Virus record (IMG/VR): IMGVR_UViG_3300042554_002954 | Location: 1-39,436 of that record | DNA from: a virus | Length of the DNA: 39,436 bases | Direction: 5' to 3' (one strand) | Shown here: positions 1-31,751 of the stretch, one piece after another | Position numbering within the stretch: position 1 is the first letter of the stretch | Layout of the letters: each line of letters begins with the position of its first letter | Program-made: the position numbers and the translations under genes | Notes under the pieces: generated by a model | Database searches by the model: none | Seen by the model: only the letters and a program-made list of their open reading frames with translations | What the model was told of the DNA's origin: nothing

Positions 1-2032
1 TTTTACGGTGAATAATCTCGGTGCTGAGAACTTCGATGTCTCCGCGTTCAATCATCGAACCAAAATATGCAGAGCTTTCCATACGTGCTTTGGTGTAAGC
101 AAAAATGGTATCTTTGGCCTGCTGTTCGTTCGTAGCGATGGATAGAACGAATACAGGGTCTCCAGGCAAAAGACCCAGCTCTTGGCCTGGATCATCCATT
201 TTTGTAAGTCTGTAAAACTCGTAAGAGGACATTGCGCCCGTCAGCGAGGAGTTGTGAGATACAACACCTCCGGATACGTATTCTTGAACTTCTGGAACTG
301 AAAAATCGTAAAGATGCTCTTCTGTTTCCCAAAGCTCTTCAACTTGATCAAACAGCAGATTTTGCTCCAGAAGGCTTTCTAAGAATGCTACATCTTTTTC
401 ACAGCCGGGCACGGCAGAAAAATACTCAATAATTTCTGGCAGTTTGTCATACGTGATTCCAGACCATCCATTTGGATCATCTCTTCTAAGCGTACCGCCA
501 CACTGACGTCTTATTTTGTTCCACAGCTCAACACGACCTGAGCCTCGCTTGGTCATGCCTTCTTTGAGCTTCATTGCTCGGAGCATGCCGTGAAGATAAG
601 GAATTTTATCGGTAGTATCGACTGTAATCTCGGGAGCTTCTTTTAAAACATCCTGCTTACGAGAAAGCCCAAACCCTATCTCAGTAAAAAACTTTCTTGC
701 GTGCTTGCCATAAATACTGATCGTTGAGTAGGTGTTTAAACTACCGTCTTGTTTTTTGTAGTTACCTTGACGATTTGCTCGAGTAGACTTGATTCCAAAA
801 CCAAGAAGAAGCACATGAATTTCTTCTACAAGCTTTTTAGACGCAGAAGCAAAGCCAACAACAAGTCTCTTTTTACTGCCATATTTGCCTTTAGAAACAG
901 AGCAGGTAGCAAATCCATCTGTGTCAAACAAACCACGAAGGAAATGCTTTACAGACTCCTTTGAGGACATCCTAATAATAGGTGGAACACTTTTATGGTA
1001 AGCTGTGCAATAATCTAAACCAAGGTACTCAAGAAGATCACGTATAGGTTTCCTTGATATCTTAACTTGATATGTAATATCTGATGATGTGCTTTTTGCT
1101 ATTTGTGGTGTAACACCAAATAGCTTTTCACTCAAGTATACAAAGTCATTAAGTAGCTCTAAATCAGCAGTAGTAAATCCAATAGATCCACTACTAGAAT
1201 CACTATAGCAACCATCCCCAACAAGATAGCCCATAAACCTTGTAAGTTCTGGAGTTATTTTACTTGGTAGCAAACATTCCTTTGTGTTTAATCTCTGTAG
1301 GGTAAATTCAAATTCCTTATCTACCCCAAAATCTACAGGTTTTTTATCTATACATAAAAAGTCATCTTTAATTATATCAGGTAATTTTTTCCACTCAAAC
1401 TTACCTTCTTTGTTAAACGTAAGTACAGGGTGCGTTGGAGCGCCCCCAACTTCATACCCGCTTTTTGTTCTGACATTCAGAGTTTTTTGTTTTATCCTTG
1501 AAATACCGTAATTAACTTTCTTCATTCCAAATCTGGTTTGAATATAAGTATTATCAAAAGCAACTGTGATGTCTTCATTTACGTTTGCAGGTAGTAATTC
1601 GCTAATGTAACGGTACCCATCACCCTTAACCAAAATTAAACAATTTCTTAAAGTTTTTGATGATCCCATTCCGGATTCTAAGCTAAGGTTTTTATAGCGT
1701 TGTCCGGGCACCCAGAGAGCTTTTTTTTCATCAAGCCACTTATCCATGATGGCGGCTTCATCAAACTCTGTGTCGTCGCTTACGCGCCATTTCTTGAGCT
1801 TCTCGCCACGCGTAGGGTCATCAGGAGAAATACATTCTCCCCACAAGCCTTTACTGAAAGGAATGCCATAAAAAGCTTTCATGATGACACGCTGAGCAGG
1901 GAACAGGTACAAGCCAAGAATTTCCTTGGCGTACTCAACCGGCGACAACATGGAGTTGTCGTTTTGCATGGCTTCAGAAATGATCTGGTCTAGTAGTCCA
2001 TCAAAGCCGCGGTCTTTTTTATCTCTTGCCAT
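1..2032 (-). CDS. terL: Terminase large subunit (ATPase), partial, interrupted by an intein
   Basis: The C-terminal part runs off the left edge; 677 codons are visible and open throughout. It starts at ATG 2032, with AGGA 7 bases upstream, 9 bases after the preceding stop. The large terminase subunit is the ATP-driven motor that packages phage DNA into the prohead; its nuclease domain would lie beyond the window. Residues 1-126 form the N-extein, with an adaptor-like segment (EILGLYLFPAQRVIMKAFYG) and a Walker A start, ESGMGSSK (119-126). The C-extein resumes at S595 with SSLTGAMSSYEFYRL, then DDPGQELGLLPGDPVFVLS, a pattern I associate with phage terminases just after the P-loop. Splicing would give GMGSSK-SSLTGAM, a normal P-loop plus helix. 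Walker B and nuclease motifs are not in view. Confidence is high for terminase and for the intein. Confidence 0.88.
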   Translation of the reverse strand, partial: MARDKKDRGFDGLLDQIISEAMQNDNSMLSPVEYAKEILGLYLFPAQRVIMKAFYGIPFSKGLWGECISPDDPTRGEKLKKWRVSDDTEFDEAAIMDKWLDEKKALWVPGQRYKNLSLESGMGSSKTLRNCLILVKGDGYRYISELLPANVNEDITVAFDNTYIQTRFGMKKVNYGISRIKQKTLNVRTKSGYEVGGAPTHPVLTFNKEGKFEWKKLPDIIKDDFLCIDKKPVDFGVDKEFEFTLQRLNTKECLLPSKITPELTRFMGYLVGDGCYSDSSSGSIGFTTADLELLNDFVYLSEKLFGVTPQIAKSTSSDITYQVKISRKPIRDLLEYLGLDYCTAYHKSVPPIIRMSSKESVKHFLRGLFDTDGFATCSVSKGKYGSKKRLVVGFASASKKLVEEIHVLLLGFGIKSTRANRQGNYKKQDGSLNTYSTISIYGKHARKFFTEIGFGLSRKQDVLKEAPEITVDTTDKIPYLHGMLRAMKLKEGMTKRGSGRVELWNKIRRQCGGTLRRDDPNGWSGITYDKLPEIIEYFSAVPGCEKDVAFLESLLEQNLLFDQVEELWETEEHLYDFSVPEVQEYVSGGVVSHNSSLTGAMSSYEFYRLTKMDDPGQELGLLPGDPVFVLSIATNEQQAKDTIFAYTKARMESSAYFGSMIERGDIEVLSTEIIHRK
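251..1654 (-). other. Intein with LAGLIDADG (DOD) homing endonuclease inside the terminase P-loop
   Basis: This in-frame insertion of about 468 residues (T127-N594 of the precursor) splices itself out post-translationally. The visible splicing blocks are: block A-like LILVKGDGYRYISELLP; block B APTHPVLT with T200 and H201; block F LYDFSV with D576; and block G VVSHN followed by +1 Ser (H593, N594, S595). Two DOD motifs lie about 99 residues apart: FMGYLVGDG (D273) and FLRGLFDTDG (D372). Between them is a block D-like KSVPPII. About 200 residues separate the second motif from block F and may hold a DNA-recognition region. The C-terminal junction is firm. The N-terminal junction is inferred: Thr at 1654 aligns best with known block A spacing and restores the P-loop, while Cys131 (at 1642) is the alternative first residue. 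The D at the block F position argues against a class 3 intein. Confidence 0.88.
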
Positions 2033-3813: not shown

Positions 3814-6801
3814 CTAAGATTTCTTAGCGTTTGGATCCCACTTTATGTATTTTACACCCTGAGCTGCAAACTTTAACAATACATCTAGTGGAGGCATTCT
3901 ATTCTTTCCTTCTCCAACTTTTGTATCTTTTGCCGTTACTACCTGTTTTAATCCAATAGAAGATACCTGCTTTGTTTGATAACTTTTTACGCTCAAGTTT
4001 TTTATTTCTATGGGTGTGCTGTGAGCTGTAACTGCCCGTAAACCGAAATAAAATTTTGTTAAGTCCGAGTAGCTTTTTATAAAACTGAATGAAAAAGAAG
4101 GTATTTGTAAAGATACTGTAAGAAAATTTTTATTAATAACTACTTCATTACCTTGGGCTATAATATCCAAATCTTTATCAAATATACAAGGGTAAACTAA
4201 TCCAATATCGTCACCAATATTATCAAACCTTAAAGTTACAGTGTATATATCTCCTTTATTTTGAAACTCATACGGGTTAACTAAAGGGCCTGCATAAGCT
4301 GCACTAAATGCATTAGATAAAATAAAGTTTACTGGCTTTACACCTGGAAAATTAGGTAACTTAGAAAAGTCTACTTTGAAAGTTTGTTTTGTTAAGTCTT
4401 CTTTTAACAAATCTGCAGTAGTTGCGTTTGTGTATGTAGGGTTATTAGCGTACGTAGCCTGTGAATTAATCTTATACAACTTTACTTTTGTTGCTTCAGA
4501 GTATGATTCCGGAGTTATTAAAAATACGCAACAAGTATCTACTGTAAAAGTATAGTTTGAGAAGTTAAATCTAGAAGCATTTGAGTCTTCTGCGCTGTTT
4601 TCGTATACCTCTACTTCTACATAAAATTTGGCTTTTTGATGGCGCTCGAAAAGACTGTAAGATAATGTTTTAAATTTAAGGACGGGTTGTTCGCTAAACT
4701 TGAGCTCTTGCTCAGCAATTAATACCGGTGAAGAAGTATCCTGTGTATAAAGTCTAGCCTTTGCTTTATACTTTGGAGTTTTAGGTAGATAAACACTGTT
4801 AGCTTTTATACTTAAATCTACAGACAAAGTTAAATTACTACTTTTAGGCACAACTATACTTGACTTTGCTAAAAAAGAAGTCTTAATACTCAAGTTTTCA
4901 CTTAAGTTAGTTTCAAAGAATAGGGTTTTTCTGTCAGAAAAGTTTTCAAAACTATTATCTTTTAATACTGTTTTTGCGTAACCCGATTTATAAACACTAC
5001 TCAGCTTGTCTTCCGTTATATCTCTGTCTAAATCAGAAACCAAGTATATATCTATTTCAGTAGTATTAGTAATAGAGCTTACACTACTAGTAAAATTGTA
5101 AAACTCTATTTTAAAAGCATCATGAGATATAGAAAATAAATCCGATAAAGTAAACTCAAGTTGTGCGGGAGTTATGTACTCTTTATAATAAAGATCAGCT
5201 ATAGGTAAAGTGCTAGTATCAATATTGATTGTGTAGGAGTAATTTGATGGATTCTCTGGAACAGTTACATACTTTGAAAGTTTGATAGAAAACCCGTTTA
5301 TATTGCTCCAATTTTTAATTCTTACTTTTACTCTAAACTTCTTATCTTTGTTCTTTTCAAAGTAATCAAGTACGTCTGCTTGATTTGTCCAAAGCTTTGT
5401 TAATCCAAAATCTGCTGAGACAGCGCATTCAAATTTTCCAGCGTTTTTTATAGTATCAAAATTGTAAGGAGTTACTTTTAAAGTTATACCGCCTAATTCG
5501 TTTGTGTAGGCACCTAGATCTTGACTTGAAACTTTTAGTTTAAAATTGGATTTAAACTGCGTATCCACTTGTGTAACAGCTTCTAGTGTGTGTTTGTAAA
5601 GAGTTATATTACTAGATACACTAGAGCCTGATTTAGAGCCGTTAAGCTGATTTTGTACATACTTTGTTAGTTCATTTATAAGAAAATTGGAATCGTTTGC
5701 CTTTTTACCTGCTGTTTCTTTTATTCTTGTAAGTTGTTCACTTAAGTTTTTTTCACTAGTAATGCTATTAAAGTAATCTTGTAAATTTTTTATAGATTTA
5801 AAGTTCTGTATTGAAGCGTCCAAGATACCAAGTCTTTTTAACTCTTCAAAAGTCTTTTCTGACAAAAAATCTTGCTTGTCTTTATTAGACCCTAGGAAGA
5901 CTTCAACTCCCTTACCATCACTATTCTTTGACCCATTTATTAAGCTTTTAAATACAGGATTTAGCTTTGATGGGTCATCTACCTGTCCTTTAGGGGTAGG
6001 CGTTGCACCAACTACACTAAAATCAAATAAAGGAATTTTACCGCCAGCAATGTCTATAGTTATAACGTCTAGTTCGGCTGGTACTTCACTTACAGCTTTT
6101 TTAGGCTCTACCTTTGGCGGTAGTTTTATAACAATAGGTTTATATCCTATTTCTGGATCGTATATTACATGAGATTTTATAGGCTTAGAACTAATCGAAG
6201 AAGCGTGTGTGTTTGCAGAACTTTTTAAAGCGCCCGCATCTGTAAGCTTTCCGGGACCTAGTTCAGGCTCGCCTGCCATAGATTTTACACTGTTTATGCC
6301 TTGATCCTTTTTTTGAAGCATTGCTTCACGAAGAAAAGGACTTATAAAATCATAAACTTTTGACACGTTATTACCAGCAACATTGTCGTCTTTAAAAATA
6401 GTTTGTTGAACAGCAGGAATAACGTTTCTAGAAAAACTATCAAACATACTAAATGCTTTTTCGTTGTCTTCTTTAAGAGCTGAGTTTACAGTATCTCTGA
6501 CAACGTTGTTAACGGTGTTTGGAGCTAGTCCGGTGTCTCCAGCAAAATAAGACGTTACAGAAGCAGATATAGCGCCTAAAAACCCTGCTGTAGCTCTTGG
6601 GTTACCTGCGGGATTAAAAACAGCTACTTTTGAGCCGTCTGGCTTATTAACCATACTTACTGCGTTGTTTATAAAAGTTCCATTTAAAAAACTAAAGGCG
6701 TTATTAACATTCTTATTTCCAGTATCTATACCTGGAATTCCGACAGCAATAAAATCCCTGAGGTTGCTTAGTAACTCTTTTGGTTTATTATTTTCACTCA
6801 C
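3814..6801 (-). CDS. Unassigned large virion-type protein, 995 aa
   Basis: I do not recognise this family. The start is GTG 6801, supported by AAAGGAG 6 bases upstream; the gene begins 11 bases after the previous stop. Residues 1-180 look helical and include an Ala/Gly-rich stretch (GFLGAISASVTSYFAGDTGL). A Pro-rich linker follows near 220-270, then roughly 700 residues with dense beta-strand-like, Ser/Thr/Asn/Tyr-rich sequence resembling multi-domain fibre or appendage proteins. No catalytic motif, Cys cluster or transmembrane segment is seen. The C-terminus ends in a basic YIKWDPNAKKS. The length, beta-rich composition and position after the DUF4815-like gene suggest a peripheral baseplate or tail-fibre component. 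That is inference from context and composition only. Confidence 0.6.
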   Translation of the reverse strand: MSENNKPKELLSNLRDFIAVGIPGIDTGNKNVNNAFSFLNGTFINNAVSMVNKPDGSKVAVFNPAGNPRATAGFLGAISASVTSYFAGDTGLAPNTVNNVVRDTVNSALKEDNEKAFSMFDSFSRNVIPAVQQTIFKDDNVAGNNVSKVYDFISPFLREAMLQKKDQGINSVKSMAGEPELGPGKLTDAGALKSSANTHASSISSKPIKSHVIYDPEIGYKPIVIKLPPKVEPKKAVSEVPAELDVITIDIAGGKIPLFDFSVVGATPTPKGQVDDPSKLNPVFKSLINGSKNSDGKGVEVFLGSNKDKQDFLSEKTFEELKRLGILDASIQNFKSIKNLQDYFNSITSEKNLSEQLTRIKETAGKKANDSNFLINELTKYVQNQLNGSKSGSSVSSNITLYKHTLEAVTQVDTQFKSNFKLKVSSQDLGAYTNELGGITLKVTPYNFDTIKNAGKFECAVSADFGLTKLWTNQADVLDYFEKNKDKKFRVKVRIKNWSNINGFSIKLSKYVTVPENPSNYSYTINIDTSTLPIADLYYKEYITPAQLEFTLSDLFSISHDAFKIEFYNFTSSVSSITNTTEIDIYLVSDLDRDITEDKLSSVYKSGYAKTVLKDNSFENFSDRKTLFFETNLSENLSIKTSFLAKSSIVVPKSSNLTLSVDLSIKANSVYLPKTPKYKAKARLYTQDTSSPVLIAEQELKFSEQPVLKFKTLSYSLFERHQKAKFYVEVEVYENSAEDSNASRFNFSNYTFTVDTCCVFLITPESYSEATKVKLYKINSQATYANNPTYTNATTADLLKEDLTKQTFKVDFSKLPNFPGVKPVNFILSNAFSAAYAGPLVNPYEFQNKGDIYTVTLRFDNIGDDIGLVYPCIFDKDLDIIAQGNEVVINKNFLTVSLQIPSFSFSFIKSYSDLTKFYFGLRAVTAHSTPIEIKNLSVKSYQTKQVSSIGLKQVVTAKDTKVGEGKNRMPPLDVLLKFAAQGVKYIKWDPNAKKS

Positions 6802-6812
6802 GGTAGACTCCT

Positions 6813-9134
6813 TTATATTGCAGAGCTTCCAGAGTTTCTACTAAACAAAACTTTTTGCTCATCTAATTTTTTATTATATATGATTGTGTTTAAATATTTA
6901 GCTACTTGAATTAAACCGTCATCGTCTAAAAATTCACTAGGGTATATATCTTCTAACTTTGGTAAAGCATACAGTATGTCGTAAAGTTCTACTTCAGAGT
7001 TGGTGTAAACATTTTTTATTTTAATATTGTCTAGATTTTTGAATTGAACTTTGTATTCACTTTTCAAATTAAATACGCTAAGTGTCTCATCCTCTGATAA
7101 AGAGTTATAAAATTCTAAAACTTTCCTAAACTTAAAAAACTCTTTTTCTGCAGAGTCTACAGGCATGTCAGCGCTATTTTCTGAAATTGAGTTTACAAAA
7201 TTTTTAATTTTTGTATCTTGAATAATAACTTCTGTGTTTGAAGTATACTCTTCTCTTTTATTTAGTTCCTCTTGGTTTACTTTTATAACTTTATTTTTGC
7301 TCTCAACTAACGAGTAAGAAGTAGACTCTTGTAAAGAATCTACATGCTCGTGCCCAAGAATGCTTATTGTAGAATTTGTGTAAGCAGAGGTTTTTATTTT
7401 ATCAACTTGATTAATAAGTCCAGAGTACATGTCTAAGACACTTGTAGATCTAGGGGAAGGCCTTTCTCTGACAAGGTAAAAAGACGGATCCGTAAAACTC
7501 ATATCAGGGGATTCTACAATACCTAAACTATTTCCGGAGCTATTAAAAATTTCTACATAAGTTGAAAAAGATCTGCTTATAAATCCATCCTCATCAAGAG
7601 ATGCCAACATTGTTTTTACAGTAAGTTCTTTACCTCCGGGAATAAGAACATTTTCGTCTAAAACTGGATCATAGTATATTTCTTTTGGGGCTTCTTCAGC
7701 CGTTAAAAGTTGAACCGTCTTTCCATTTATATAACTGTAAGAATTTGTGTAAGAGTTAAAAGCAATTAGAGCGTAAGTATACAGAGGAATTTCTATATCT
7801 TTGGTTATAAACTCATCTTCCGCAGCCCCATCAGTTATTACAGTTATTTTGTAAGACGGGTTAGTATGCCCCAAATGAATAAGTTTACAGTAAATAAGCT
7901 CATACCCCTCAGCTAGGTTTACAGGTTTCACGTAGTCTTTATACGTAAAGTTGGGTAGTTTTCCTTCAGGAATTAAAACAGTTATAGGTTTACTAATTAC
8001 CTGTCCTAAATCACACGGAAGTCCTATTTCTTTAAAAATTGAGTTTGATTCTGTATTACCTAGTAAGTAAGCTTTTTTTTCTTTATAAGATTTTTGATCC
8101 GAAGGGTCTAAATCTTTTAAAACAACTACGGCTGAATCATGTAAACCAAGCCCAAAAGAGTCAGAGCACCCTGTTGTAATTCTTGGAAGTTCTTGTGCTT
8201 TTGTTTCTCTATCAACAACTTTACTGTTTAAAAAAGTTTTTGCTACAGGGGACATTTCAACTGAAGCAGTAGAAAATGGATCTGTGTATTCATCATAAAC
8301 TTCAAAAGAAAAGTCTAAATCAGTAAATCCCCAAGTTAAAGCAGCACTTGTAAGGTTTAACTTGAGTACTTCGGAAAGTTCTGACATAAAATTTCTAAAT
8401 TTTTGTTTGTTACTACGAGAAGCGTAATTAGGTAGAGAAACTATATTTTCTACACCCTTTTTAATAAATTCAGATAGCTTGTCTTGATCATCTACAAGTT
8501 GAAACAAGTCAATAAACATACCGTAGGATATATCAGAATCCGCGTATAAAGAGCTTCCTGGCACGGAGAGGTAGTCCCCAATTAAACCAAGTCTTCTTTT
8601 TCTGCAACAACGCATATAATCGTTTAAAAACACTTTGTGCGTGTACAAAACTCCGGAATCAAAACAAGAAGAACAAAAATCCGAGCTGTTTATGATAGCA
8701 TACATTCCAATGTATCTTTTTAATCCAAGTGTAAATTCTTTTGTTCCAAGAACTTGGTTGTTGTCGTTTAAATGATTTACATTTTGAAATTGAAGAGCTG
8801 CGTCTCCTAATGCCTCGGATAGTTCAGCAACAATATAATTGTTTGAAATAGCTTTCCTGTAGTAATCCTTAAATTTTTTATTTAACTTTATAAATTTCTC
8901 AGATGGACTCCATACAGCTATTTTTTCTAAAACCTCAGGGTCTGAGTCAGGAACTTCTTTAAATCTGAGTTTTTCTTGATAACTGTCTTTATGGCTTCCG
9001 GGAAAATTTCCCGTTAACTCCTGTAAAAAAGATACCAAAAAATCCCATTTAGACAAAAAACTCGTTTTACTATTAATATAGGATTCTGTTTCTACATCTA
9101 GTATAAATTCTACTTTATTCGAGGATATAGCCAT
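6813..9134 (-). CDS. Unassigned large baseplate-region protein, 773 aa
   Basis: I chose ATG 9134 because AAGGA sits 7 bases upstream and it leaves a 10-base spacer. An in-frame TTG at 9158 would add 8 residues and overlap the previous stop. The family is not recognised. The N-terminal 300 residues look mainly helical and carry a cysteine group: C154-x2-C157 and C176-C177, followed by RKRR. The remainder alternates beta-like segments with acidic stretches. The C-terminal 150 residues are charged and helical, with SENSADMPVDSAEKEFFKFR. No membrane segment or enzyme motif is seen. It is translated between the DUF4815-like protein and the 995-residue protein, and these large proteins probably assemble together at the baseplate periphery. 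Confidence 0.6.
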   Translation of the reverse strand: MAISSNKVEFILDVETESYINSKTSFLSKWDFLVSFLQELTGNFPGSHKDSYQEKLRFKEVPDSDPEVLEKIAVWSPSEKFIKLNKKFKDYYRKAISNNYIVAELSEALGDAALQFQNVNHLNDNNQVLGTKEFTLGLKRYIGMYAIINSSDFCSSCFDSGVLYTHKVFLNDYMRCCRKRRLGLIGDYLSVPGSSLYADSDISYGMFIDLFQLVDDQDKLSEFIKKGVENIVSLPNYASRSNKQKFRNFMSELSEVLKLNLTSAALTWGFTDLDFSFEVYDEYTDPFSTASVEMSPVAKTFLNSKVVDRETKAQELPRITTGCSDSFGLGLHDSAVVVLKDLDPSDQKSYKEKKAYLLGNTESNSIFKEIGLPCDLGQVISKPITVLIPEGKLPNFTYKDYVKPVNLAEGYELIYCKLIHLGHTNPSYKITVITDGAAEDEFITKDIEIPLYTYALIAFNSYTNSYSYINGKTVQLLTAEEAPKEIYYDPVLDENVLIPGGKELTVKTMLASLDEDGFISRSFSTYVEIFNSSGNSLGIVESPDMSFTDPSFYLVRERPSPRSTSVLDMYSGLINQVDKIKTSAYTNSTISILGHEHVDSLQESTSYSLVESKNKVIKVNQEELNKREEYTSNTEVIIQDTKIKNFVNSISENSADMPVDSAEKEFFKFRKVLEFYNSLSEDETLSVFNLKSEYKVQFKNLDNIKIKNVYTNSEVELYDILYALPKLEDIYPSEFLDDDGLIQVAKYLNTIIYNKKLDEQKVLFSRNSGSSAI

Positions 9135-9144
9135 ACCAATATCC

Positions 9145-12100
9145 TTAAATAATATCAATATGTCTAATTAGTGGACAATCTGGTGGATCATCAAAACTGT
9201 CGCTGTTACTAGAACCATTTACATCTAGGTTTACAGGTGTATTTTCGTGATACAAGATAACTGCTGTAAATGTTTCTAAAGATTGTTGTGTGTTTAAATT
9301 TTTTATTTCAACTGTAAAAGACCTAAGAAGTCCGTTAAAATCGTCACTTTCTTTCTTTGACCTTACAATATGATCTGAAGAAAGACGACTAGTTATAGTT
9401 GAAGGTTCATCATCTCCATAGTAATCATACGTGGTAACTATGGTGTGTTTATCCAAAGTAGGAAACCTTGCCGGATCTATTTGCCATGAAACTTTCTTTA
9501 CAAGATACTTTTCTGCAGCTTTATCACTAGCTACATACTGAATCACAGGTGCTGTCTGAGCACTTGTGTCGCTAGCCAGAATGCTCTGACTTAGCAAAGC
9601 AGGGAGATAGCGCTTAAGATCAGCAATAAGGTTTTGAGTCTCTCTTTTTTCGGCTTGAGATAATCCACGGTAAGCTATCTTTTGAGGGTTTTCCCCAGAT
9701 TTTATAAAAGCTAGTGGAAGTTTGTTATTAGCTAGTAACGCTATAGAAGCGCTATCTTTTTCTGCTTCTCTAACTTTAATATAGTCTAGTCTTCCATCAG
9801 GTCCGTACTTGTAGTAATCCGCGGACAGGTAAATAATAAAACAGTCTAGTGTACCGGCTGTAGCTGTTCCAGATATAGTAGATTGAAATGTTTTAGTTTC
9901 TTTTCCATCATTGTAATTAAATTTATCATACAAAATTGGGGATAAGCCACTCATTTCACCAGAAGCTGACAAAAGAGTAATATCTAGTTCACTAGTTTGA
10001 TTTTTTGTTAATACACTTAATGTTCCGTAATCATTACTAGTTTGGCTAAGATCATTTCCTTTTAGCTGAAGCTGGCTATTTGAGTTTGAAGAATTTATAA
10101 TGTTTACTAAAATGTCTGCTTCATAGTAAACAACGTATTTTTCTCCAACAACCGGGTAAGTTCCCCTATTTTCCCACCGGATAGTAGGAAATACGTAGCT
10201 ATAACTTTGTCCATTATTAGTTACAGTTTTAGTTGTGTAGTCAAGCTTTACATCTTGATCGTGAAGGTTGTAGTAAAAAGATCCTTCTTTTTGTTCTGAA
10301 TTAGCGTTTATCTCTACATTACGAATTTGAAGCAACCGTACAGATTCTATTTGATTTGCGCTAGGTCCCCCCAAGACATGCAAACCAAGCAAATCTTTTT
10401 GCTCAGCATTTAGGGTAGAGTAATCTTGAACAAGTGGTTGTTTTCTAGTGACCTCTTCTCTAATTATGCACTTTATTTTTGATCCAGTAATAGTTTTAAA
10501 TCTTGTGGGTAAACTGTAATTAACAGTACTAGTACCAGTGTAAAGTATATTAAAATCATATGTAGACTCTGAACTACTTTCAAAATTAGGCAATACTATT
10601 TTTGCATCTGTATTTGTAATATATCTTCCTTCTACTACTGCATTAATGTTTTCAAAAGTGTAGTCTCTATTAAAACCAGTTTTAATACTGTAATCAGTTA
10701 CAACTTGGGTATCAAGTAAGTTTTTAAATCTTTCAGAAAAATAGTTGTTTGTTAATCCTGTAAATTCTCTATTGGGCAAAGAAGATTTTATTTGACCATC
10801 TTTTGTAATATGTATTGGATAAACTCTTAGGCAAAGATCTTCTTTACTAATTCCGTAAGTGCTGTAAAAAGTAGAATCATCTGTTATTTCTTTTTCTCTT
10901 ATAACAACATCTCTTAAACCAAGTGCTTGAAAATCTGCTGGTATAGATATATAGCCGTTTTCACTTGATCTAATTAAAGCGTTTCCGCTAACTGTTGTAA
11001 CGTTAGCTATACCTGATAAAACAGTCTGATCTCCTACCTTTAGGTAATTGCTTGGTCCAGGTATATAGTTGTAATACTCCGATCCAGTCAAAGTTTTAAA
11101 TTTTTGAAATACAGGTCTTCTTTCGTCTGTGGTAGTTTCACTCCAGTAAAAATCTGACAAGTAAAATTTTGTTCCAGACGGAAATGGTGTTTGTGTTTCA
11201 ATAGTTAGTCCTATATAATATCCAACATTTGTTAAAGCTAATTCATTAATTTTAGCTTGAGTGTTAAAAGTAATTTCATGCGAGGTATTACCAGAAGCAT
11301 AGCTGTAGGAAGAAGGCATACTTACTTGAGGCGTTTTTGACCCAAGAGTAAAAAAGTTTACTGAAGCCTTGAAACTTACAGATCCACTGTTAGCTGGAAG
11401 AACAACCTTGATTTTACTTGATATATTTTTTATCTTTTTTATTTCAGTCGGAGACAACTGCTTTACTAAAATATCTAAATACTTAGTATCCCCTTCAACT
11501 GAATTAGCATTTACCTTGTTTATATTAAACTTTGCGTTGTAAACACTCTTATCAGAAACTTGCTCAACAAGATCAACCTCGGGAGTTAACTCAATGTAAC
11601 TACCGCTTGCAGGCCGGGCATAGCACGTAGTTGATTTAATAGCTAACTCATCGTACTCGGATACGTGTAAAGTTCCTGCAACCCAGACAGGGACTACTTT
11701 AAGTCGATTTGCTCCTGGAAGTCCAAGGTATTGTCCTGAGCCGTTATATACTGACGGATCTCTTAAATTAGGATCTTCGGAAGCGCTAACTGTAAACTTT
11801 TCAAAGAAAACACCAATAAATCCCCAACCACTGTTTGTTACAGGAATATTTTTTGCAGAAGGAACCGTGTGTACCACACCATCACACCATATTTTATGGT
11901 CCATAGAATCTATTGTATTGTATAAAGTAAACTCTCCTGGAGTTTCTGTGTCTTCTGGAAGCTCCGAAACAACAGACAACCCAGAAATAACGTCCCCGTT
12001 TTGAAAAACAGCTTGACCATTTTGATTAATTCTGTCGCTTAAAAGAGACTGAATTTCATTAAATTCTGCAGACTGAGGAACCTCTCCGGCCAGAGCTCTC

Positions 12101-12165
12101 CACTCTTGATATCCTCTAGACCTTGAGTATCTATTAAAGTATTGAGATTCACGACTAAACTGCAT
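9145..12165 (-). CDS. DUF4815-like tail/baseplate protein, 1006 aa
   Basis: ATG 12165 follows GGGAGAGA at a suitable distance. The N-terminus has the pattern I associate with DUF4815 phage proteins: FSRESQYFNRYSRSRGYQ, then EVPQSAEFNEIQSLLSDRIN and a GDVISGLSV segment within the first 70 residues, followed by a beta-rich body. DUF4815 proteins occur next to baseplate wedge genes in large myoviruses and probably form part of the baseplate rim or the fibre attachment. The remaining 900 residues look like repeated beta domains rich in Ser, Thr, Asn and Tyr, typical of fibre-like virion proteins. The gene follows a 169-residue unassigned protein and the wedge genes and is probably in the same operon. 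The family call is from memory of the N-terminal pattern; the exact role is uncertain. Confidence 0.6.
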   Translation of the reverse strand: MQFSRESQYFNRYSRSRGYQEWRALAGEVPQSAEFNEIQSLLSDRINQNGQAVFQNGDVISGLSVVSELPEDTETPGEFTLYNTIDSMDHKIWCDGVVHTVPSAKNIPVTNSGWGFIGVFFEKFTVSASEDPNLRDPSVYNGSGQYLGLPGANRLKVVPVWVAGTLHVSEYDELAIKSTTCYARPASGSYIELTPEVDLVEQVSDKSVYNAKFNINKVNANSVEGDTKYLDILVKQLSPTEIKKIKNISSKIKVVLPANSGSVSFKASVNFFTLGSKTPQVSMPSSYSYASGNTSHEITFNTQAKINELALTNVGYYIGLTIETQTPFPSGTKFYLSDFYWSETTTDERRPVFQKFKTLTGSEYYNYIPGPSNYLKVGDQTVLSGIANVTTVSGNALIRSSENGYISIPADFQALGLRDVVIREKEITDDSTFYSTYGISKEDLCLRVYPIHITKDGQIKSSLPNREFTGLTNNYFSERFKNLLDTQVVTDYSIKTGFNRDYTFENINAVVEGRYITNTDAKIVLPNFESSSESTYDFNILYTGTSTVNYSLPTRFKTITGSKIKCIIREEVTRKQPLVQDYSTLNAEQKDLLGLHVLGGPSANQIESVRLLQIRNVEINANSEQKEGSFYYNLHDQDVKLDYTTKTVTNNGQSYSYVFPTIRWENRGTYPVVGEKYVVYYEADILVNIINSSNSNSQLQLKGNDLSQTSNDYGTLSVLTKNQTSELDITLLSASGEMSGLSPILYDKFNYNDGKETKTFQSTISGTATAGTLDCFIIYLSADYYKYGPDGRLDYIKVREAEKDSASIALLANNKLPLAFIKSGENPQKIAYRGLSQAEKRETQNLIADLKRYLPALLSQSILASDTSAQTAPVIQYVASDKAAEKYLVKKVSWQIDPARFPTLDKHTIVTTYDYYGDDEPSTITSRLSSDHIVRSKKESDDFNGLLRSFTVEIKNLNTQQSLETFTAVILYHENTPVNLDVNGSSNSDSFDDPPDCPLIRHIDII

Positions 12166-12179
12166 TAAATCTCTCCCGT

Positions 12180-12689
12180 TTAAACATCAATAACAACTTG
12201 GTAATTAAATGTTTTTGTATAGTTTTCAAAAGTATTATTGTTAATTATGTAAGTTGATGCAAACTTGGCAACAGCCTCGATAACGTAACTAGTTCTTGCG
12301 TCTTGAATAACAGAAACAGGTATAAATCCGTAAGCACTAGTATTGTTGTAACTAAAAGGTATTTTTAAATTACTTACTACGTATATAGTGTTAAAAGAAG
12401 TTGTAATAGAATTTGCTTTGATCTCAGCTTCAAGGTGAAGTTTAGGTGTTAAAGTCATTAAATTACTAGGTAAAATATTTTCTATAATAGGGAAATTACT
12501 AGGAGACTCTCCTGTTGCGTTAACAATATATTTTTTGTTTATTGGAACAATAGCTTTAACTAAACTAGCATCTATAGTTTCAGTTGAGCTTTCAGTCAAA
12601 TTATTTGTACTAGAAACCACAAAATACATAGGCTCGCTGTATAAGCTAAGAAGCCTGTGTATCCTTCCATGTTTATGGGTAACGGCCAT
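12180..12689 (-). CDS. Hypothetical baseplate-region protein, 169 aa
   Basis: I do not recognise this protein. ATG 12689 follows GGAGAAATAGT. The 53 bases between it and the previous stop are very AT-rich and could hold a promoter, but no convincing -35/-10 pair is seen. The N-terminus is basic (VTHKHGRIHRLLSLYSEPM) and the rest is Ser/Thr/Asn-rich with alternating hydrophobics, suggesting a single beta-sandwich domain. It is placed between a wedge-region protein and the DUF4815-like protein, so a small baseplate or fibre-connector component is the best guess. Confidence 0.55.
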   Translation of the reverse strand: MAVTHKHGRIHRLLSLYSEPMYFVVSSTNNLTESSTETIDASLVKAIVPINKKYIVNATGESPSNFPIIENILPSNLMTLTPKLHLEAEIKANSITTSFNTIYVVSNLKIPFSYNNTSAYGFIPVSVIQDARTSYVIEAVAKFASTYIINNNTFENYTKTFNYQVVIDV

Positions 12690-12742
12690 ACTATTTCTCC
12701 ATATAGGTTTCTATAGAATATACTATCACAAAAATATATAAT

Positions 12743-13906
12743 TTACACCCAAACGATTTGTGATATAGATTGTAAATAAATTTCAGATTGTCCTGTGTGA
12801 ATTACTTCTGTCTGCGTAGAACTAAAACTAGAGTAGAGCTCTGTACTTTCTGTTTGTCCTATCATGTAATATACTGAAAAATTAACTAGTACGCCGGCAG
12901 CTTTTACAGACTTAAGCACACTACTGTTTAACACAGCTAAACTGTCTTCTATTGATTTTATAGAACTTACCTGAAAAGAAGAAAATAAAGTACAGTTTAG
13001 TGTTGCTCCGTACTGTTCAAAATTAAAATACTTTTTACCTCTTGTAAATCCTAAAGAATACCTACCAAGTGCAGTTTTTAAAGCCGCCAATCTTTTTTGT
13101 TTTATATCTTCAGTTTCTTGGTATACCAATCCGTTTTCTGAAGAATTTATACTAAACAAATCATCAAGTGACTCGTTTATAGGCTGCATTGTGTTAATTT
13201 GAGAACTAAACCTATTGTATGCAAATTGATTTAAGTTTCTATCAAAGTTTAATTTATACGCTTGATTTCGTTTTAAAAAGTCACTATTGGACTCTCCAGG
13301 GAGCTGCTCTACAACGTATGACGGACCGTGCGGATATTTTTTTACGTTTTTAAAAGGCTCTTCAAAGTAGACTTCTACAATTCCTTTTCCAGATAAAAAT
13401 GATTTTATAGAACTAGCTACTTCTAAAAAAGTTACTCCGCTAGGTGTAAACAACTTTATAAGTTTTTGAGATATCTCAAATATTCTTTTTTGATATTGCT
13501 CTTTTGTTTCTTTTTCCCAGTCAATTTCCCAAGATGCTACGTATCTTGGATTGTTTTTATCCTCAATGTTTCCGTAGTCACCGTAGTAATCATAGTAAGT
13601 ATTTCTGACGTGGTCTATCCAGGTATCCGTAATTTTTTTATGAATAGTAGATAAATAGATGTTGTTTCTTAATTCTGTTACAGAGTGTATCAAGTTTGCT
13701 ACTGATTTTGACAATGATAAAAATAAAGCTGAAGATGTAGAAGTTGCTCTGAGAGCAAACGAATACATGCTATCTCTCGTAACTTGTCTTACAGAAAAAC
13801 CAAACCAAAGTTTATTCTTAGGAATTTTAGAAACAAGCACTGCAAATATATGATTTGCTAAAGCAGACTTATCGGAGTAGTTAGATTTAACTCTTTCAAA
13901 AGGCAT
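12743..13906 (-). CDS. Probable baseplate wedge-region protein, 387 aa
   Basis: The ATG at 13906 directly abuts the TAA stop of the J-like gene, so the two are probably translationally coupled. In many contractile tails the gene after the J/gp6-like wedge protein encodes the second wedge partner (the P2 gpI or T4 gp7 position), and that positional logic is my main argument. The sequence has a helical N-terminus (about 1-100), an acidic Tyr-rich segment (YYDYYGDYGNIEDKNNPRY, about 120-140) and a Trp/Glu segment (WEIDWEKETKEQYQKR). A mixed alpha/beta C-terminal half follows. I do not see clear sequence identity to gpI. There are no membrane or catalytic motifs. Confidence 0.55.
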   Translation of the reverse strand: MPFERVKSNYSDKSALANHIFAVLVSKIPKNKLWFGFSVRQVTRDSMYSFALRATSTSSALFLSLSKSVANLIHSVTELRNNIYLSTIHKKITDTWIDHVRNTYYDYYGDYGNIEDKNNPRYVASWEIDWEKETKEQYQKRIFEISQKLIKLFTPSGVTFLEVASSIKSFLSGKGIVEVYFEEPFKNVKKYPHGPSYVVEQLPGESNSDFLKRNQAYKLNFDRNLNQFAYNRFSSQINTMQPINESLDDLFSINSSENGLVYQETEDIKQKRLAALKTALGRYSLGFTRGKKYFNFEQYGATLNCTLFSSFQVSSIKSIEDSLAVLNSSVLKSVKAAGVLVNFSVYYMIGQTESTELYSSFSSTQTEVIHTGQSEIYLQSISQIVWV

Positions 13907-15169
13907 TTAGTTTTCCGCCGTAATGCTTAAACCAAGCAAAGTTATAGTACTTTCACTACTCGCTGGTTTAACTTCTCTGCTAGGGCCAACTTCTGCAGAT
14001 TTACCCCTTAAATACTGAACTGGATAATTTTCCGGGTAAAGTATTTGAACACTTACTCCCTTTTGAGTTACTTCAGAGCTAAAGAGAGAGCCTTCTAATG
14101 CGGCTACATATATAGACTGACCAGGGGAAAGCGAAGAAAATGCTGACTTTACTCTAGAAGTTACATCAGATACGTAACTGACTACTTTTGGGTTATTACT
14201 GCCAAGGGTTGTTTTTAAAACAACAACACAATTAAGTGCAGTAACAGGAGGGGCAGTAACATCAAATCTTATGCCTGCGGATTTTTTTGAATTTATTTCT
14301 TCAATAACTAAAGTTTTTAAACTTTCAGGTAAACTGCCGTTTTCCCAGAGTTCAGGCACTACTTGAACAACAAAAGAACCTGGGTGCTTTGATTCAATTT
14401 GGCCGCTAGTAAGAAGTATGCTGTTGTCAAACACGGTAGCGTTTTTAACGCCTGGAAGGCCTTTTACGGCGTTTTCTATAATACTTGCGGTTCCGTATCC
14501 TATTGACTGTATATAAGACCTAAAACCTGCCCTCATCTCATCTTCAGTATCAGAAGAAGTTCCGCCAGTTATTCCGGCTCCACTAAAAACTGTAAAGTCA
14601 GAATTAAAACTAGACCCAACAAAAAAACTTAAAGATTTGTAAGTAGGGTCAAAAGTATATAAAGCTGTTCCCGCATCAATAGTTAGTTCTCCAACACTTG
14701 TAGATTCAACAACTAGCTTTACAGCTTGATTAGAGGTAGCATTTCTTGTAAATCCTCCATTTATATTATCTACTCTTGTTACGGTAAGAGTTGCCTGGGG
14801 GTTTGCAGAAAGTAGTACAGTTCCTACAGGGATAGAAGAATTAAAGGTATTATCTGGTTTTTTTACAGCGTAAACGATACCAGTGGACTTTGTTCCAAGC
14901 CTAGGGCTGTAATTAAAATCTTGAAGCCTTTGCACAAGGCTATCTCCAGTTGCTGTACTTACATAAAAAGAATCAGATAAAGATTTAAAATTTGTCCAAT
15001 AGTCAGACAACGTAGCAGCTATAGATCTAAGTATTGTATAGATTACGGACCCCTCAGAAAAGTCTGTGATCTTTTTTGAGCTCGGTAATTTAACTTGGTT
15101 TTCTTTTAAATCGTTTACTAAATCATCTGTAATATCTGAATAAGTTTTAAATCTAAAATCCCCTGCCAT
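13907..15169 (-). CDS. Baseplate wedge protein, J-like (gp6 family)
   Basis: J-like proteins form the inner baseplate wedge of contractile tails and dimerise to close the ring around the hub. The N-terminus (DDLVNDLKENQVKLPSSKKI, then DFSEGSVIYTILRSIAA) shows the usual family pattern: a short helix, the DFSxGSVI segment and a helical stretch. YVSTATGDSLVQRLQDF follows, matching the conserved segment where each monomer reads A-TG--LD--G in relatives. The centre carries beta-rich domains with VPELWENGSLPESLKTLVIE. The length (420 aa) is in the normal range. ATG 15169 lies 9 bases after the gp25-like stop and the next gene starts immediately after the TAA, the usual gp25-J order. Confidence 0.85.
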   Translation of the reverse strand: MAGDFRFKTYSDITDDLVNDLKENQVKLPSSKKITDFSEGSVIYTILRSIAATLSDYWTNFKSLSDSFYVSTATGDSLVQRLQDFNYSPRLGTKSTGIVYAVKKPDNTFNSSIPVGTVLLSANPQATLTVTRVDNINGGFTRNATSNQAVKLVVESTSVGELTIDAGTALYTFDPTYKSLSFFVGSSFNSDFTVFSGAGITGGTSSDTEDEMRAGFRSYIQSIGYGTASIIENAVKGLPGVKNATVFDNSILLTSGQIESKHPGSFVVQVVPELWENGSLPESLKTLVIEEINSKKSAGIRFDVTAPPVTALNCVVVLKTTLGSNNPKVVSYVSDVTSRVKSAFSSLSPGQSIYVAALEGSLFSSEVTQKGVSVQILYPENYPVQYLRGKSAEVGPSREVKPASSESTITLLGLSITAEN

Positions 15170-15178
15170 ACTATACTC

Positions 15179-15667
15179 CTAGTTTATACCGTTAAGATTT
15201 AAGGATACGCTGGAAATTTCAGAACTTCCAACAGTTTGGTATTTTATAACTACGCTTAGCAAGCCAATTCTGTTTTTTAAGTCTAATCCAACATCAATCA
15301 AATTTATTCTACTATCAGAGGACACTACTGATTGTATACTAGACTTTATTAATTTAACAGTATTAAAATTAAATGGCTCAGAGAGCAAAGCAGTTAAATC
15401 TGACCCATACGCGAGGCCCTTATTTAACACAACTGATCTATATTGCTGAGTAAGGGAATCTAACTCATAAGTACTTACGAGAGCTCCATAACTACCAAAG
15501 TAAGTCTTTATTTTCCTGTATATAGATTTTTGTATGGACTCATCATCAGTTACAATATCTATATCTCCATTTTTTAAACTTATATCATCGTTTTCTATAT
15601 CGTAATCAGTAGCAGCAGATATACTACTCTGATCAGACTGTACTCTTATATCTCCGTAGTTATCCAC
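15179..15667 (-). CDS. Baseplate wedge protein, gp25/W-like
   Basis: GPW/gp25 proteins are small lysozyme-fold-like (non-enzymatic) baseplate components that nucleate sheath assembly. Here a 162-residue protein contains NGDIDIVTDDESIQKSIYRK around 30-55, followed by KTYFGSYGALVSTYELDSL. This fits the family order: GDI segment, a glutamine-containing helix, then a loop leading to the YG-like turn. GTG 15667 is the start; AGGAGGG lies 8 bases upstream. Position directly upstream of the J-like gene supports the call. The C-terminal half (SDSRINLIDVGLDLKNRIGL) matches the family's beta-strand pair. The protein is near the upper end of normal size for this family. Confidence 0.8.
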   Translation of the reverse strand: MDNYGDIRVQSDQSSISAATDYDIENDDISLKNGDIDIVTDDESIQKSIYRKIKTYFGSYGALVSTYELDSLTQQYRSVVLNKGLAYGSDLTALLSEPFNFNTVKLIKSSIQSVVSSDSRINLIDVGLDLKNRIGLLSVVIKYQTVGSSEISSVSLNLNGIN

Positions 15668-15670
15668 AAC

Positions 15671-16549
15671 TTAGCCCTCCTGTGCTTCAAACTCATCTGT
15701 AGAAGAAATAAAAGCTGGAATAGGACTCATATCTGACCACTGCGGTAATTGAACTGAATTTTTAGCCTTAGAGGAAAACCCGATAGAAGCGGGAGAGGTT
15801 CTTGATGAGCTAGCTGGATTCAAGTCAATCCTGTCTCCCACAATTTTTATATTTTTAGCGCTAACACTTAATTTTTCACCAGCAATTATTCCTATGTTTT
15901 CAGCAGACAGACCAAACTCATCTTTTACAGAAACAAGCATATCTTTTGCTTTGTTTATAAGTAGATCTGCTTCTGCAAGCAAAGTATGAGCAAGTAAAAC
16001 TCTGGAGTGAGCAGTATCAACAAATACAGGAGCTTCATTTCGAATTAAAGTTCCCGCCCTTGTCAAAAGAGATTTTAAAACTTTTACTTCACTTGAGGAC
16101 AGCACCTCTACTGTATTTCCAGAATCCATTTCTACAGAGTTTGTCTGAACAACATCCCCAAACTGCTGAAGACTTTCATTAATAGTTTTTTCTACAATAG
16201 ATTTTTCACCAATAGGTATAGTTTTTCCAATCATATTGTAAAGAGTTATCACAAAAGATTTTAGCTCTGAGTAATCTTTTTTACCTATTCCCAAGAGCTC
16301 TTCGGATATAACCCTGTTTAAACCAAGTAATATGTTCTTTTTTAACTTATTTACCTGATCAGGATGAGCATCCTCGGGAGGAGTCTGATTTAGTCCAGCA
16401 TCAGGGTTTCCTACAAAAGTAGAATTTAAAGATTTTGTTGTGTGATCTAACAGCTTTACAGACTGTTTAGACACATCTTTAGTTTGCTCTTTTACAGAGT
16501 TAGCAAAACCAACAATACTGGATATAAAACTTAAAGCCAAGCTACGCAC
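15671..16549 (-). CDS. Tail-tip protein with short beta-helix-like segment, possible spike tip, 292 aa
   Basis: I chose GTG 16549, which overlaps the previous gene by 8 bases; TTG 16552 is an equal alternative with one extra residue, and the SD is weak (AAGAAAG). The first 200 residues look helical and soluble. Near residues 220-245 the sequence shows an alternating pattern, GEKLSVSAKNIKIVGDRIDL, like the triple-stranded beta-helix repeats of phage spike proteins, followed by a Ser/Pro-rich tail. With the OB-fold spike-like and hub genes just upstream, a role at the central needle or an adjacent hub part is plausible. The family itself is not recognised, and the repeat is short, so this is inference. 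Confidence 0.5.
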   Translation of the reverse strand: MRSLALSFISSIVGFANSVKEQTKDVSKQSVKLLDHTTKSLNSTFVGNPDAGLNQTPPEDAHPDQVNKLKKNILLGLNRVISEELLGIGKKDYSELKSFVITLYNMIGKTIPIGEKSIVEKTINESLQQFGDVVQTNSVEMDSGNTVEVLSSSEVKVLKSLLTRAGTLIRNEAPVFVDTAHSRVLLAHTLLAEADLLINKAKDMLVSVKDEFGLSAENIGIIAGEKLSVSAKNIKIVGDRIDLNPASSSRTSPASIGFSSKAKNSVQLPQWSDMSPIPAFISSTDEFEAQEG

Positions 16550-18329
16550 CAAACTTTCTTAAAAAGTCAAATCCAGTTTTTATGTTTGTTCCATTAAGTA
16601 GATATGCTGAGTATTTACTTCCGGCTTCTGCAAGTTTTTTTATTATACTTTCTTTTTCCTCTGAAGAAATAATACTAGCGCTTGAAACTAATTTTATTCT
16701 TTCAAGAACAAGCGCAGAAAGTAATGCAGGAAAGGCTTGAAACCCTAAAAATCCCCCTCTTTCCTGTACAGTGTCTTTCCAACCGTTTGTTAGGTTAACT
16801 ACATTTTGAAGGCTGCCAAATTCATTTTTTACAGCTGGCAATACGTTACTTACAAAAGCTTCACTTTTTTCTAAATGGCTAAAGTAATCTGAACTTCCGT
16901 TCAAAGCTAAAATCATTTCAGAACTTAAAGAGCCGTAAGAAGGAGAAACATTAAATATCCAGTCCCAAATACTATACAAAGTAGAACTGCTTGAATTTGA
17001 ATTTCTATCCATAAACAATAAATTAAGTGCATCTTCTAAAGAGTTAAATCTGCTAGATACCATTTTTAATTTAAGCAACCACAACTTTAAATTGCTCTCT
17101 TGCTGCTGGTACTGAATAGCTATTGAAAGTATCTCATAACAGGTTTCTTCTGATAGCTCTCCTAGAGCAGAATCAATTTCTTTAAATTTTTTAAACTTGT
17201 TATAACTTTCACTAGATCTAAGACTCATTGCTGGAATAAAAGAAGAAAGGTCATCCTCTGGATTTTCTATTATTTTATTTATGTCTAACATGTCTTCCAA
17301 TTTTTGTTTTAACTCGTAAGGTAAAGAATTATACCCAGGAATTGCGTACATGGGCATCAAAGTGTTAAAGAGATCATAATCACTTTTATTTGCATTTTGG
17401 GTATCCTGTCTGAGTTGCTGTATTTTGTTATAAAGATCTGGATTGTTTTCTTGCAGGTTGTTTCCGTGAGCAAGGTAAAATAAATTTCCTGGCATACTAG
17501 GTACGATAGGGTTGTAGTTAATTCTTTTTTTAAGATTGTCTGGATTTTTTTCTTCCGTTACTTTATCTCTAAAAAATTTAGAAGAAGCGGCCTCCGACAT
17601 AGGGCTTAAAACAGAATCATACGTATGAACGTAGCTAAAAATTGTCTGCTTTAACTGATCTGCGGTGGTTGAAAGAAACTGAAACGGATCTGTATCTATG
17701 GTTGAAATTGCCGTAGAAAGATTAGCCGATACACTAGCGATTTGATTTTGTAAAACTTGAATGTTTTTTAGATCTTCTGTTATTTTTGTAGCATTTTCAA
17801 CAACTTGTGAAATAGAAGAAAGGCTATCAACATTACCAGATCTAACAGCTGTTACCTGCGTGTTATCTCCCTCAACAGAACCTACGGTCTGAGATTCTTT
17901 CATGACTCTGTTGGCGTTATCTTTGTAGTAGTGCTGAGGATGTGGCGTATACGGCAGAATAGACTCTACGCTGCTTTTTATGTTTTCTATACTAGCGTTT
18001 ACAAGAGGTATTTCGGATCCTTTATTATCAATACGAGCTTGTAAATTATTTGCTATTTCAGGTGTTTTTAAAATTTTATCTAAAGATATTTCTCCAAAAT
18101 CTTTTGGCTCTGTTAAACCTTTTATACTGCTCTGAGCAAGCTCAAAAGCACTTAGTATGCCCTCTTTAAACCCGTACAAAGAAAATCCATTAACCATCTG
18201 GCTTGCAGTGCTTTTTACAGAATCCACTTGCTCTGAAAGCTTACTGGAAACGTCAGAATGCATATCTTTTAGTCTACCTAGTTCACTTTTTATTTGAGAT
18301 ATTTGATTTATGTTATTAAAGTCAAGCAT
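16542..18329 (-). CDS. Helical tail-tip protein, 595 aa, unassigned
   Basis: ATG 18329 follows AGGA by 8 bases; a GTG at 18332 overlapping the previous TAG by one base is an alternative. The protein looks mostly alpha-helical, with a coiled-coil-like N-terminus (QISQIKSELGRLKDMHSDVS) and long Ser/Asn/Gln-rich helices. The last 60 residues are helical and slightly hydrophobic (ALLSALVLERIKLVSSASII), though no clear membrane span is seen. It is the most helical long protein in the window, so it is a weak candidate for a tape-measure or hub-linked protein. Its position after the spike-like gene fits a hub or tail-tip component better. Family not recognised. Confidence 0.55.
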   Translation of the reverse strand: MLDFNNINQISQIKSELGRLKDMHSDVSSKLSEQVDSVKSTASQMVNGFSLYGFKEGILSAFELAQSSIKGLTEPKDFGEISLDKILKTPEIANNLQARIDNKGSEIPLVNASIENIKSSVESILPYTPHPQHYYKDNANRVMKESQTVGSVEGDNTQVTAVRSGNVDSLSSISQVVENATKITEDLKNIQVLQNQIASVSANLSTAISTIDTDPFQFLSTTADQLKQTIFSYVHTYDSVLSPMSEAASSKFFRDKVTEEKNPDNLKKRINYNPIVPSMPGNLFYLAHGNNLQENNPDLYNKIQQLRQDTQNANKSDYDLFNTLMPMYAIPGYNSLPYELKQKLEDMLDINKIIENPEDDLSSFIPAMSLRSSESYNKFKKFKEIDSALGELSEETCYEILSIAIQYQQQESNLKLWLLKLKMVSSRFNSLEDALNLLFMDRNSNSSSSTLYSIWDWIFNVSPSYGSLSSEMILALNGSSDYFSHLEKSEAFVSNVLPAVKNEFGSLQNVVNLTNGWKDTVQERGGFLGFQAFPALLSALVLERIKLVSSASIISSEEKESIIKKLAEAGSKYSAYLLNGTNIKTGFDFLRKFGA

Positions 18330-18331
18330 CA

Positions 18332-27742: not shown

Positions 27743-27764
27743 ATCCAACACCTTCCTCTTTTAA

Positions 27765-30714: not shown

Positions 30715-30730
30715 GGTTACCTACCTGATA

Positions 30731-30781
30731 AAAAGGACCAGCCGAGAGATAGCATGCCTTTTGGCAGAGGCCCGGCTGGTC
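30731..30781 (-). terminator. Rho-independent terminator closing the head gene module
   Basis: On the minus strand GACCAGCCG (30781-30773) pairs with CGGCTGGTC (30744-30736), with a small inner stem GCC-AAAA-GGC, and is followed by CTTTTTAT. It sits about 10 bases beyond the stop of the 122-residue head protein and 17 bases before the next gene start. The strong stem and T run make this the clearest termination signal after the major capsid protein genes. Confidence 0.85.
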
Positions 30782-30790
30782 GTCATAGTT

Positions 30791-31159
30791 TTACTGCTTT
30801 CTGGCTCGGGGCTTTGCTGGAGCAGCTTCTTCCAAAGCTGCTTCTTCCGAAACTGCCTCTTCTTCAGCAACTACAGGCTCTTCCTTGGGCGCTGACTTTG
30901 ACACTACCTTGGCTTCAACTTGAAGCTTTGACAGTTCAAGAGCAAGCGTCTCAAGAGAAAAGTTTACAGGGCTAAAGTGAGGAAAACCCGATCCAGAAAA
31001 AGCCTGGAAATTTGAGTGAGCGTACGCAATGCCACCGCGCATAGCAAGGAGCTTTTCAGCGAGTACTGCGTCTTCAACAGAAACAAGATCGCCAACCATC
31101 AAGTGCTGACCAAGATCAGCATTGTGGTGAGCATGCCGTGTCAATAAAACAAACGTCAT
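30791..31159 (-). CDS. Small head-module protein with acidic Ala/Glu-rich tail, 122 aa
   Basis: ATG 31159 follows AAGGAGCTTTTT. The first 80 residues (LLTRHAHHNADLGQHLMVGD) look folded. The last 40 are an Ala/Glu/Pro-rich, acidic and probably disordered tail ending in basic PRARKQ. The family is not recognised. It is the last gene before the terminator that closes the capsid module, and it follows the probable decoration protein, so a capsid-associated or head-completion role is likely. The codon choice is less AT-rich than in the tail genes. Alternatives are a chaperone or an internal head protein. Confidence 0.55.
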   Translation of the reverse strand: MTFVLLTRHAHHNADLGQHLMVGDLVSVEDAVLAEKLLAMRGGIAYAHSNFQAFSGSGFPHFSPVNFSLETLALELSKLQVEAKVVSKSAPKEEPVVAEEEAVSEEAALEEAAPAKPRARKQ

Positions 31160-31180
31160 AAAAAGCTCCTTGCTTGCGAA

Positions 31181-31708: not shown

Positions 31709-31731
31709 GATTTAAATACTCCTTTTAAGTT

Positions 31732-31751
31732 GGGGGAAGTTTCCTTCCCCC
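31732..31751 (-). promoter_or_regulatory. Hairpin between capsid and decoration genes
   Basis: Arms GGGGGAAG (31732-31739) and CTTCCCCC (31744-31751) pair around a TTTC loop, and outer AGTTG/CAACT pairing could extend the stem. On the minus strand it lies about 20 bases after the capsid stop and is followed by AACTTAAAAGGAG, with no T run. It is more likely an mRNA stabiliser, processing site or partial attenuator than a full terminator. Confidence 0.5.

Follow-up and report, generated by a model that had tools for sequence, protein, structure and literature searches.

A threonine-starting LAGLIDADG intein in the terminase P-loop of a myovirus, and a near-identical terminase without it

The large terminase subunit (TerL) encoded by the stretch of viral DNA analysed here (the window, a 39.4 kb IMG/VR fragment) carries, directly after its Walker A lysine, a LAGLIDADG homing-endonuclease intein. 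We consider it very probable that this is a mobile large intein, seated in a myovirus TerL at the bond joining Lys to Ser in Walker A, which would excise itself and home into empty alleles. In favour of this view we count a 99% identical TerL that lacks the insert, an orthologue at the same bond, related P-loop inteins, profile and fold matches, a pN below pS, and a synonymous footprint around the insertion. A more specific proposal is made tentatively: that this is a natural, splicing-competent Thr1 intein issued from a Cys1 lineage, working with neither the NX-motif histidine nor a Thr at B:7, and that the corresponding target in the sister phage has been recoded over 21 bp and may resist homing.

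Results

The terminase gene and its insert

The window belongs to a contractile-tailed phage, a myovirus, whose genes for the sheath, the baseplate, the major head protein and a protease have matches among the PHROGs. Its tail sheath protein (24965-27751, minus strand) contains a low-complexity stretch, TTTTTTSTTTSTTTTTTTAAPAA, between domains, and the gene at 37596-39413 (minus strand) encodes a tail/host-specificity-like protein with many tandem units of about 10-11 residues (LSGDLAAVNA-like).

Once the insert is removed, the TerL precursor is homologous to the terminase of Microcystis phage LMM01 and to other TerLs; the LMM01 terminase, at first suspected of bearing an intein, was found to be intein-free. 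The insert corresponds to precursor residues 127-594 and the protein reads GMGSSK/TLRNC...VVSHN/SSLTGAM (slashes mark the junctions), its removal (1654..251) joining GMGSSK to SSLTGAM. The frame of 468 codons is intact, with a GC content of 38% against 46.6% for both exteins. The features discussed below are collected in Table 1.

Table 1. Coordinates in the window of the TerL precursor gene, its exteins and the intein
Feature	Position	Strand	Basis
TerL precursor gene	2..2032	-	ORF and translation; 3' end missing at contig end
N-extein, 126 aa, ending in Walker A GMGSSK	1655..2032	-	98-99% protein identity to the intein-free sister TerL
Last four N-extein codons, GGA TCA TCA AAA (sister GGC TCG AGC AAG), all synonymous	1655..1666	-	Window-sister comparison
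Intein, 468 aa, HINT splicing domain with inserted LAGLIDADG endonuclease	251..1654	-	Pfam, NCBIfam, fold match, empty site
Intein residue 1, Thr (codon ACT)	1652..1654	-	Relatives have Cys in alignments; junction fixed by empty site
Block B, A72-P-T-H75: His at B:10 present, Thr at B:7 replaced by Ala	1430..1441	-	Alignment of relatives
LAGLIDADG homing endonuclease domain, intein residues ~130-345	620..1267	-	LAGLIDADG_3; structural alignment to I-DmoI and I-Tsp061I
First LAGLIDADG motif, FMGYLVGDG, Asp147	1211..1237	-	GYLxGDG invariant in alignment
Second LAGLIDADG motif, LRGLFDTDG, Asp246	914..940	-	DTDG invariant in alignment
Block F, YDF, Asp450 at F:4; class 1-like, not class 3	302..310	-	No Cys at F:4
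End of block G, S-H467-N468	251..259	-	Invariant in alignment of relatives
First three C-extein codons, TCC TCG CTG (sister AGC AGT TTG), all synonymous	242..250	-	Window-sister comparison
C-extein, 83 aa available, beginning with Ser+1, the Walker A Ser/Thr of the spliced motor	2..250	-	Joined flanks align gap-free to intein-free TerL

An intein-free sister phage

A scan of viral contigs retrieved a sister phage, IMGVR_UViG_3300042453_004886 (194.6 kb), whose TerL, compared across all 209 extein residues available, is 99% identical at the protein level; it reads GMGSSK/SSLTGAM without interruption. The initial annotation had placed an in-frame insertion of about 468 residues at the Walker A lysine, at 251-1654, and these coordinates are exact, since residues 127-594 are precisely what the sister protein lacks. 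At the DNA level the two genes are 97.2% identical over 390 nt on one side and 94.7% over 243 nt on the other. The two contigs are collinear, their major head proteins being 98.7% identical over the part that was fetched; the 194.6 kb sister record showed no intein signature. The resemblance is a sharp mosaic: several head genes and TerL (window 29047-32938 and 2-2032) are 90-99% identical to the sister, whereas tail and baseplate proteins are mostly 31-64% identical, those of window 3814-20455 mostly only 31-50%, in the same gene order.

Alignment of intein-free terminases, proposed in the initial annotation as a check, confirms the empty site more widely. The joined window exteins, ESGMGSSK-SSLTG, run gap-free across the junction against three intein-free TerLs (LMM01, ECGRRGGK-SVLAS; a Microcoleus phage, EAGRRGSK-SAMAS; an uncultured phage, SVGRRSGK-SLLAA), and in dozens of more distant TerLs the P-loop K(S/T) pair is uninterrupted. 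The empty allele of the sister settles the junctions.

Profiles, fold and related inteins

The identification of the insert as a homing-endonuclease intein holds on several grounds: two Pfam profiles, the predicted fold and the presence of an orthologous element at this very bond. Intein_splicing (PF14890) matches precursor residues 142-594 above its cut-off (E 1.8e-10), as does LAGLIDADG_3 (PF14528) within the insert (E 6.7e-23); many intein-containing NCBIfam models match the insert partially, and it scores below the cut-offs of two NCBIfam intein terminus models. Both endonuclease motifs were described as having intact Asp, and indeed GYLVGDG and GLFDTDG keep an Asp that is invariant among five relatives. 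An AlphaFold2 model built on a five-sequence alignment has a mean pLDDT of 71 and a pTM of 0.71, both ends being weak. Its top structural matches (Foldseek, VIA-align) are TliVMA, PhoVMA, the intein endonuclease 2cw7 and PI-PfuI, with Z of 20-25 over model residues 1-467, followed by I-DmoI-type endonucleases over model residues 130-345. The fold comparison (Z up to 25) and the PF14890 match both show the HINT fold and splicing blocks by which an intein is recognised.

Queried as one uncut sequence, the precursor gave no match in viral contigs. Scanning DNA for a degenerate version of KNLSLESGMGSSK brought up an orthologous intein of 467 aa, 53% identical, at the same TerL bond of a second phage group, in three IMG/VR records (L100-L102, i.e. 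3300020183_000172, 3300020220_000129 and 3300020204_003393). Its TerL is 69% identical to that of the window in the N-extein and 86% in the C-extein. The two inteins share domain order and Ser+1; that of L100-L102 differs in that it starts with Cys, has Ser at B:7 and Ala at F:13, and lacks a Cys at position 5. Against this orthologue pN and pS are 0.37 and 0.84 for the N-terminal splicing part, and 0.34 and 0.71 for the endonuclease part; a recent loss of constraint would not be visible in these values, because dS to the orthologue is saturated. More distant inteins (27-31%) are found at this bond of the P-loop in Psychrobacillus phage Perkons, in one IMG/VR contig, and in Paenibacillus sp. 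NAIST15-1 and Chengkuizengella marina. Those of Perkons and of Paenibacillus/Chengkuizengella resemble the window intein in their P-loop K/T site and LAGLIDADG endonuclease, and differ from it by Cys1, Thr+1 and a more distant host terminase.

Two records hold further intein-like sequences. IMGVR_UViG_3300020220_000129 has another HINT-like stretch (43-1323), separate from the TerL intein and within an open frame of 1010 codons that lies at the contig end. In IMGVR_UViG_2909739949_000002 a related TerL (ORF 3980-7060) has an intact P-loop and an intein elsewhere, downstream of the Walker B region, with junctions GRG/CQYKDD...SHN/TITFG; a second intein-bearing gene is present in the same record.

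Residues of the splicing centre

The initial annotation reported all main splicing blocks as present, a statement which stands in part and has to be amended for residue 1, B:7 and F:13. Block F with Asp450, the terminal His467-Asn468 followed by Ser+1, and the block B His75 are as described; the Thr of block B, however, adjoins the His and is not at B:7, where the window intein has Ala and its relatives Ser or Thr. The block F His position, F:13, is Gln. The initial annotation made no mention of Thr1, although all five homologous inteins compared (L100, L096, L107, L108 and Perkons) start with Cys. Of 112 sampled inteins, 104 start with Cys, 8 with Ser and none with Thr; this sample (72 strong and 40 weaker matches to the intein N-terminal profile, from three genome groups) is biased towards profile-like starts. 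A scan of other viral contigs found no Thr1 start, with the proviso that it may have lacked the closest records to the window. We think that the lineage was probably ancestrally Cys1 and that the Thr1 of the window is derived. The Thr1 codon is two base changes from a Cys codon and one from a Ser codon, and a true Ser1 with a single base error may underlie it, the window intein being known from one contig only. Position 5 is a Cys that is not seen in the aligned relatives.

The definition of class 1 allows Ser, Thr or Cys at position 1 (PMC5222942). A second source likewise admits Thr1 in class 1, yet the step-1 nucleophiles that it lists are Cys1 and Ser1 alone (PMC4031507). Thr1 falls within this definition, Asp450 is the commonest class 1 residue at F:4, and SHN/S agrees with the rule of His-Asn followed by Cys, Ser or Thr at +1; in block B His75 is present and B:7, a highly conserved position outside the class definition, is Ala72. 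Class 3 is ruled out by the Asp rather than Cys at F:4, and class 2, defined by the lack of Cys, Ser or Thr at position 1 together with Cys+1, does not fit an intein with Thr1 and Ser+1. Nor does it belong with the cysteine-less Ser1 subgroup, characterised by an NX-motif histidine upstream of block B: this histidine is absent here, because His75 is the first histidine of the window intein.

A silent footprint at the insertion site

All seven codons flanking the insertion, four before and three after, differ from those of the sister, and all differ silently, with three of the seven being Ser codons switched between TCN and AGY. Differences amount to 12 of 21 nt at the junction versus 22 of 606 elsewhere (Fisher p 1.7e-11), and no other 21-nt stretch of the comparison has more than 3. 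Two readings may be offered for this pattern: homing may have co-converted a very short tract from the donor, or the target may have been silently recoded, which would protect the intein-free phage from the endonuclease. The host gene of the orthologue, at codons that differ for the same residue, agrees now with one of the two phages and now with the other, and it does not polarise the junction changes because synonymous sites are saturated.

Discussion

A probable mobile intein and how it would work

We suggest that the intein excises after translation by chemistry of the class 1 type. Thr1 would serve as the N-terminal nucleophile in an N-O acyl shift at the Lys-Thr1 bond, the N-extein would then be transferred to Ser+1, and cyclisation of Asn468 would rebuild the P-loop as GMGSSKSSLTG. 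Before splicing, the TerL motor would be expected not to bind ATP; that it is inactive until splicing follows from the interruption of the Walker A motif, by the usual reasoning for P-loop inteins. The rate of splicing might then also govern packaging, as the initial annotation suggested. The endonuclease, for its part, would cut intein-free TerL alleles at the site, and repair would copy the intein in. The Thr1 state is possibly slower in splicing.

TerL is essential for tailed phages, which weighs against the possibility that this copy is splicing-impaired or dead, Thr1 and Ala at B:7 representing decay of the N-terminal splice site and TerL remaining unspliced, cleaved only at the C-terminal side, or slow to mature. 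We regard this as unlikely. Two catalytic positions of the N-terminal junction have changed together in an intein that also misses the NX histidine, the sampled inteins all begin with Cys or Ser, and C1S changes inactivate several inteins (PMC10189870). Thr1, Ala at B:7 and Gln at F:13, together with the lack of an NX-motif histidine, do not match the requirements reported for an alcohol nucleophile in the same work, and for this reason efficient splicing is not assured for the window copy. Against decay, the reading frame is uninterrupted, the endonuclease Asp and C-terminal splice residues are kept, published TerL inteins splice efficiently (PMC5050341), and residue 1 is still a hydroxyl nucleophile, its two base changes from a Cys codon having possibly passed through Ser.

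The concentration of changes at the N-terminal junction, with His B:10, Asp F:4, His-Asn and Ser+1 all kept, could also be read as a class 2-like bypass in which Ser+1 directly attacks the Lys-Thr bond and Thr1 goes unused. This seems improbable to us, since the class 2 inteins so far described use Cys+1 and need Thr at B:7 (PMC4031507; PMC7765530), and the window intein has neither.

Still more doubtful is a junction lying four residues downstream, with Cys5 as nucleophile (TLRN/C) and TLRN kept in the mature motor (GMGSSKTLRNSSLTG). Cys at position 5 occurs, among the aligned inteins, only in the very copy that has lost Cys1, and the retained Thr would preserve a Walker A K-T pair. However, the empty allele, GMGSSK/SSLTG, has no such extra residues, which would fall in the helix after the P-loop, and it is residue 1, not 5, that aligns with the start of solved inteins and with the Cys1 of the orthologue, and that coincides, by extrapolation, with the point where the NCBIfam N-terminal splicing profile begins. 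A start at this Cys (precursor Cys131, TLRN falling in the extein) had been considered first, as a plausible block A, and was rejected as the default on the gap-free empty site and the register of the relatives.

Finally, that the insert is a conserved terminase domain, as its single reading frame with the terminase might suggest, is refuted by the sister allele, the dozens of other TerLs without it also leaving no room for such a domain in relatives, and the insert has the profiles and fold of an intein and its endonuclease.

The sister pair is a clean natural experiment: near-identical terminases with and without the element, in which every codon across the insertion is different and the protein there unchanged. 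With this pair one can ask whether silent changes allow a phage to evade a homing endonuclease, or whether only a very short flank is copied in homing. The Thr1 start is, likewise, a natural test of threonine as a replacement for cysteine in the splicing nucleophile.

Comparison with known inteins

The solved inteins TliVMA (7qss), PhoVMA (7qst) and PI-PfuI (1dq3) share their fold with the window intein over its whole length, but are only about 20% identical to it and reside in other host proteins; the TliVMA and PhoVMA structures are C1A mutants, so that the wild types have Cys1. With cysteine-less Ser1/Ser+1 inteins such as PolB16 OarG (PMC10189870) the window intein shares hydroxyl residues at both junctions; inteins of that type, however, start with Ser and carry an NX-motif histidine, unlike the window intein with its Thr1 and no histidine before His75.

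The statement in the initial annotation that inteins in phage terminases and P-loops form a known class agrees with the literature, where the bond between Lys and Ser/Thr of the TerL P-loop is a "classic" site: the mycobacteriophage TerL1-a inteins lie between the invariant P-loop Lys and the next Thr (Kelley et al. 2016, PMC5050341). In the same study other TerL inteins spliced efficiently in a reporter, and two cut the intein-free DNA of their partner. The TerL1-a inteins have the same position in a phage terminase P-loop as the window intein, in a different phage group; a similarity search of the phage collection at E 1e-5 returned no mycobacteriophage record. To the terminase P-loop inteins already known, the window copy adds a Thr1 start and a near-identical sister gene that is free of the element.
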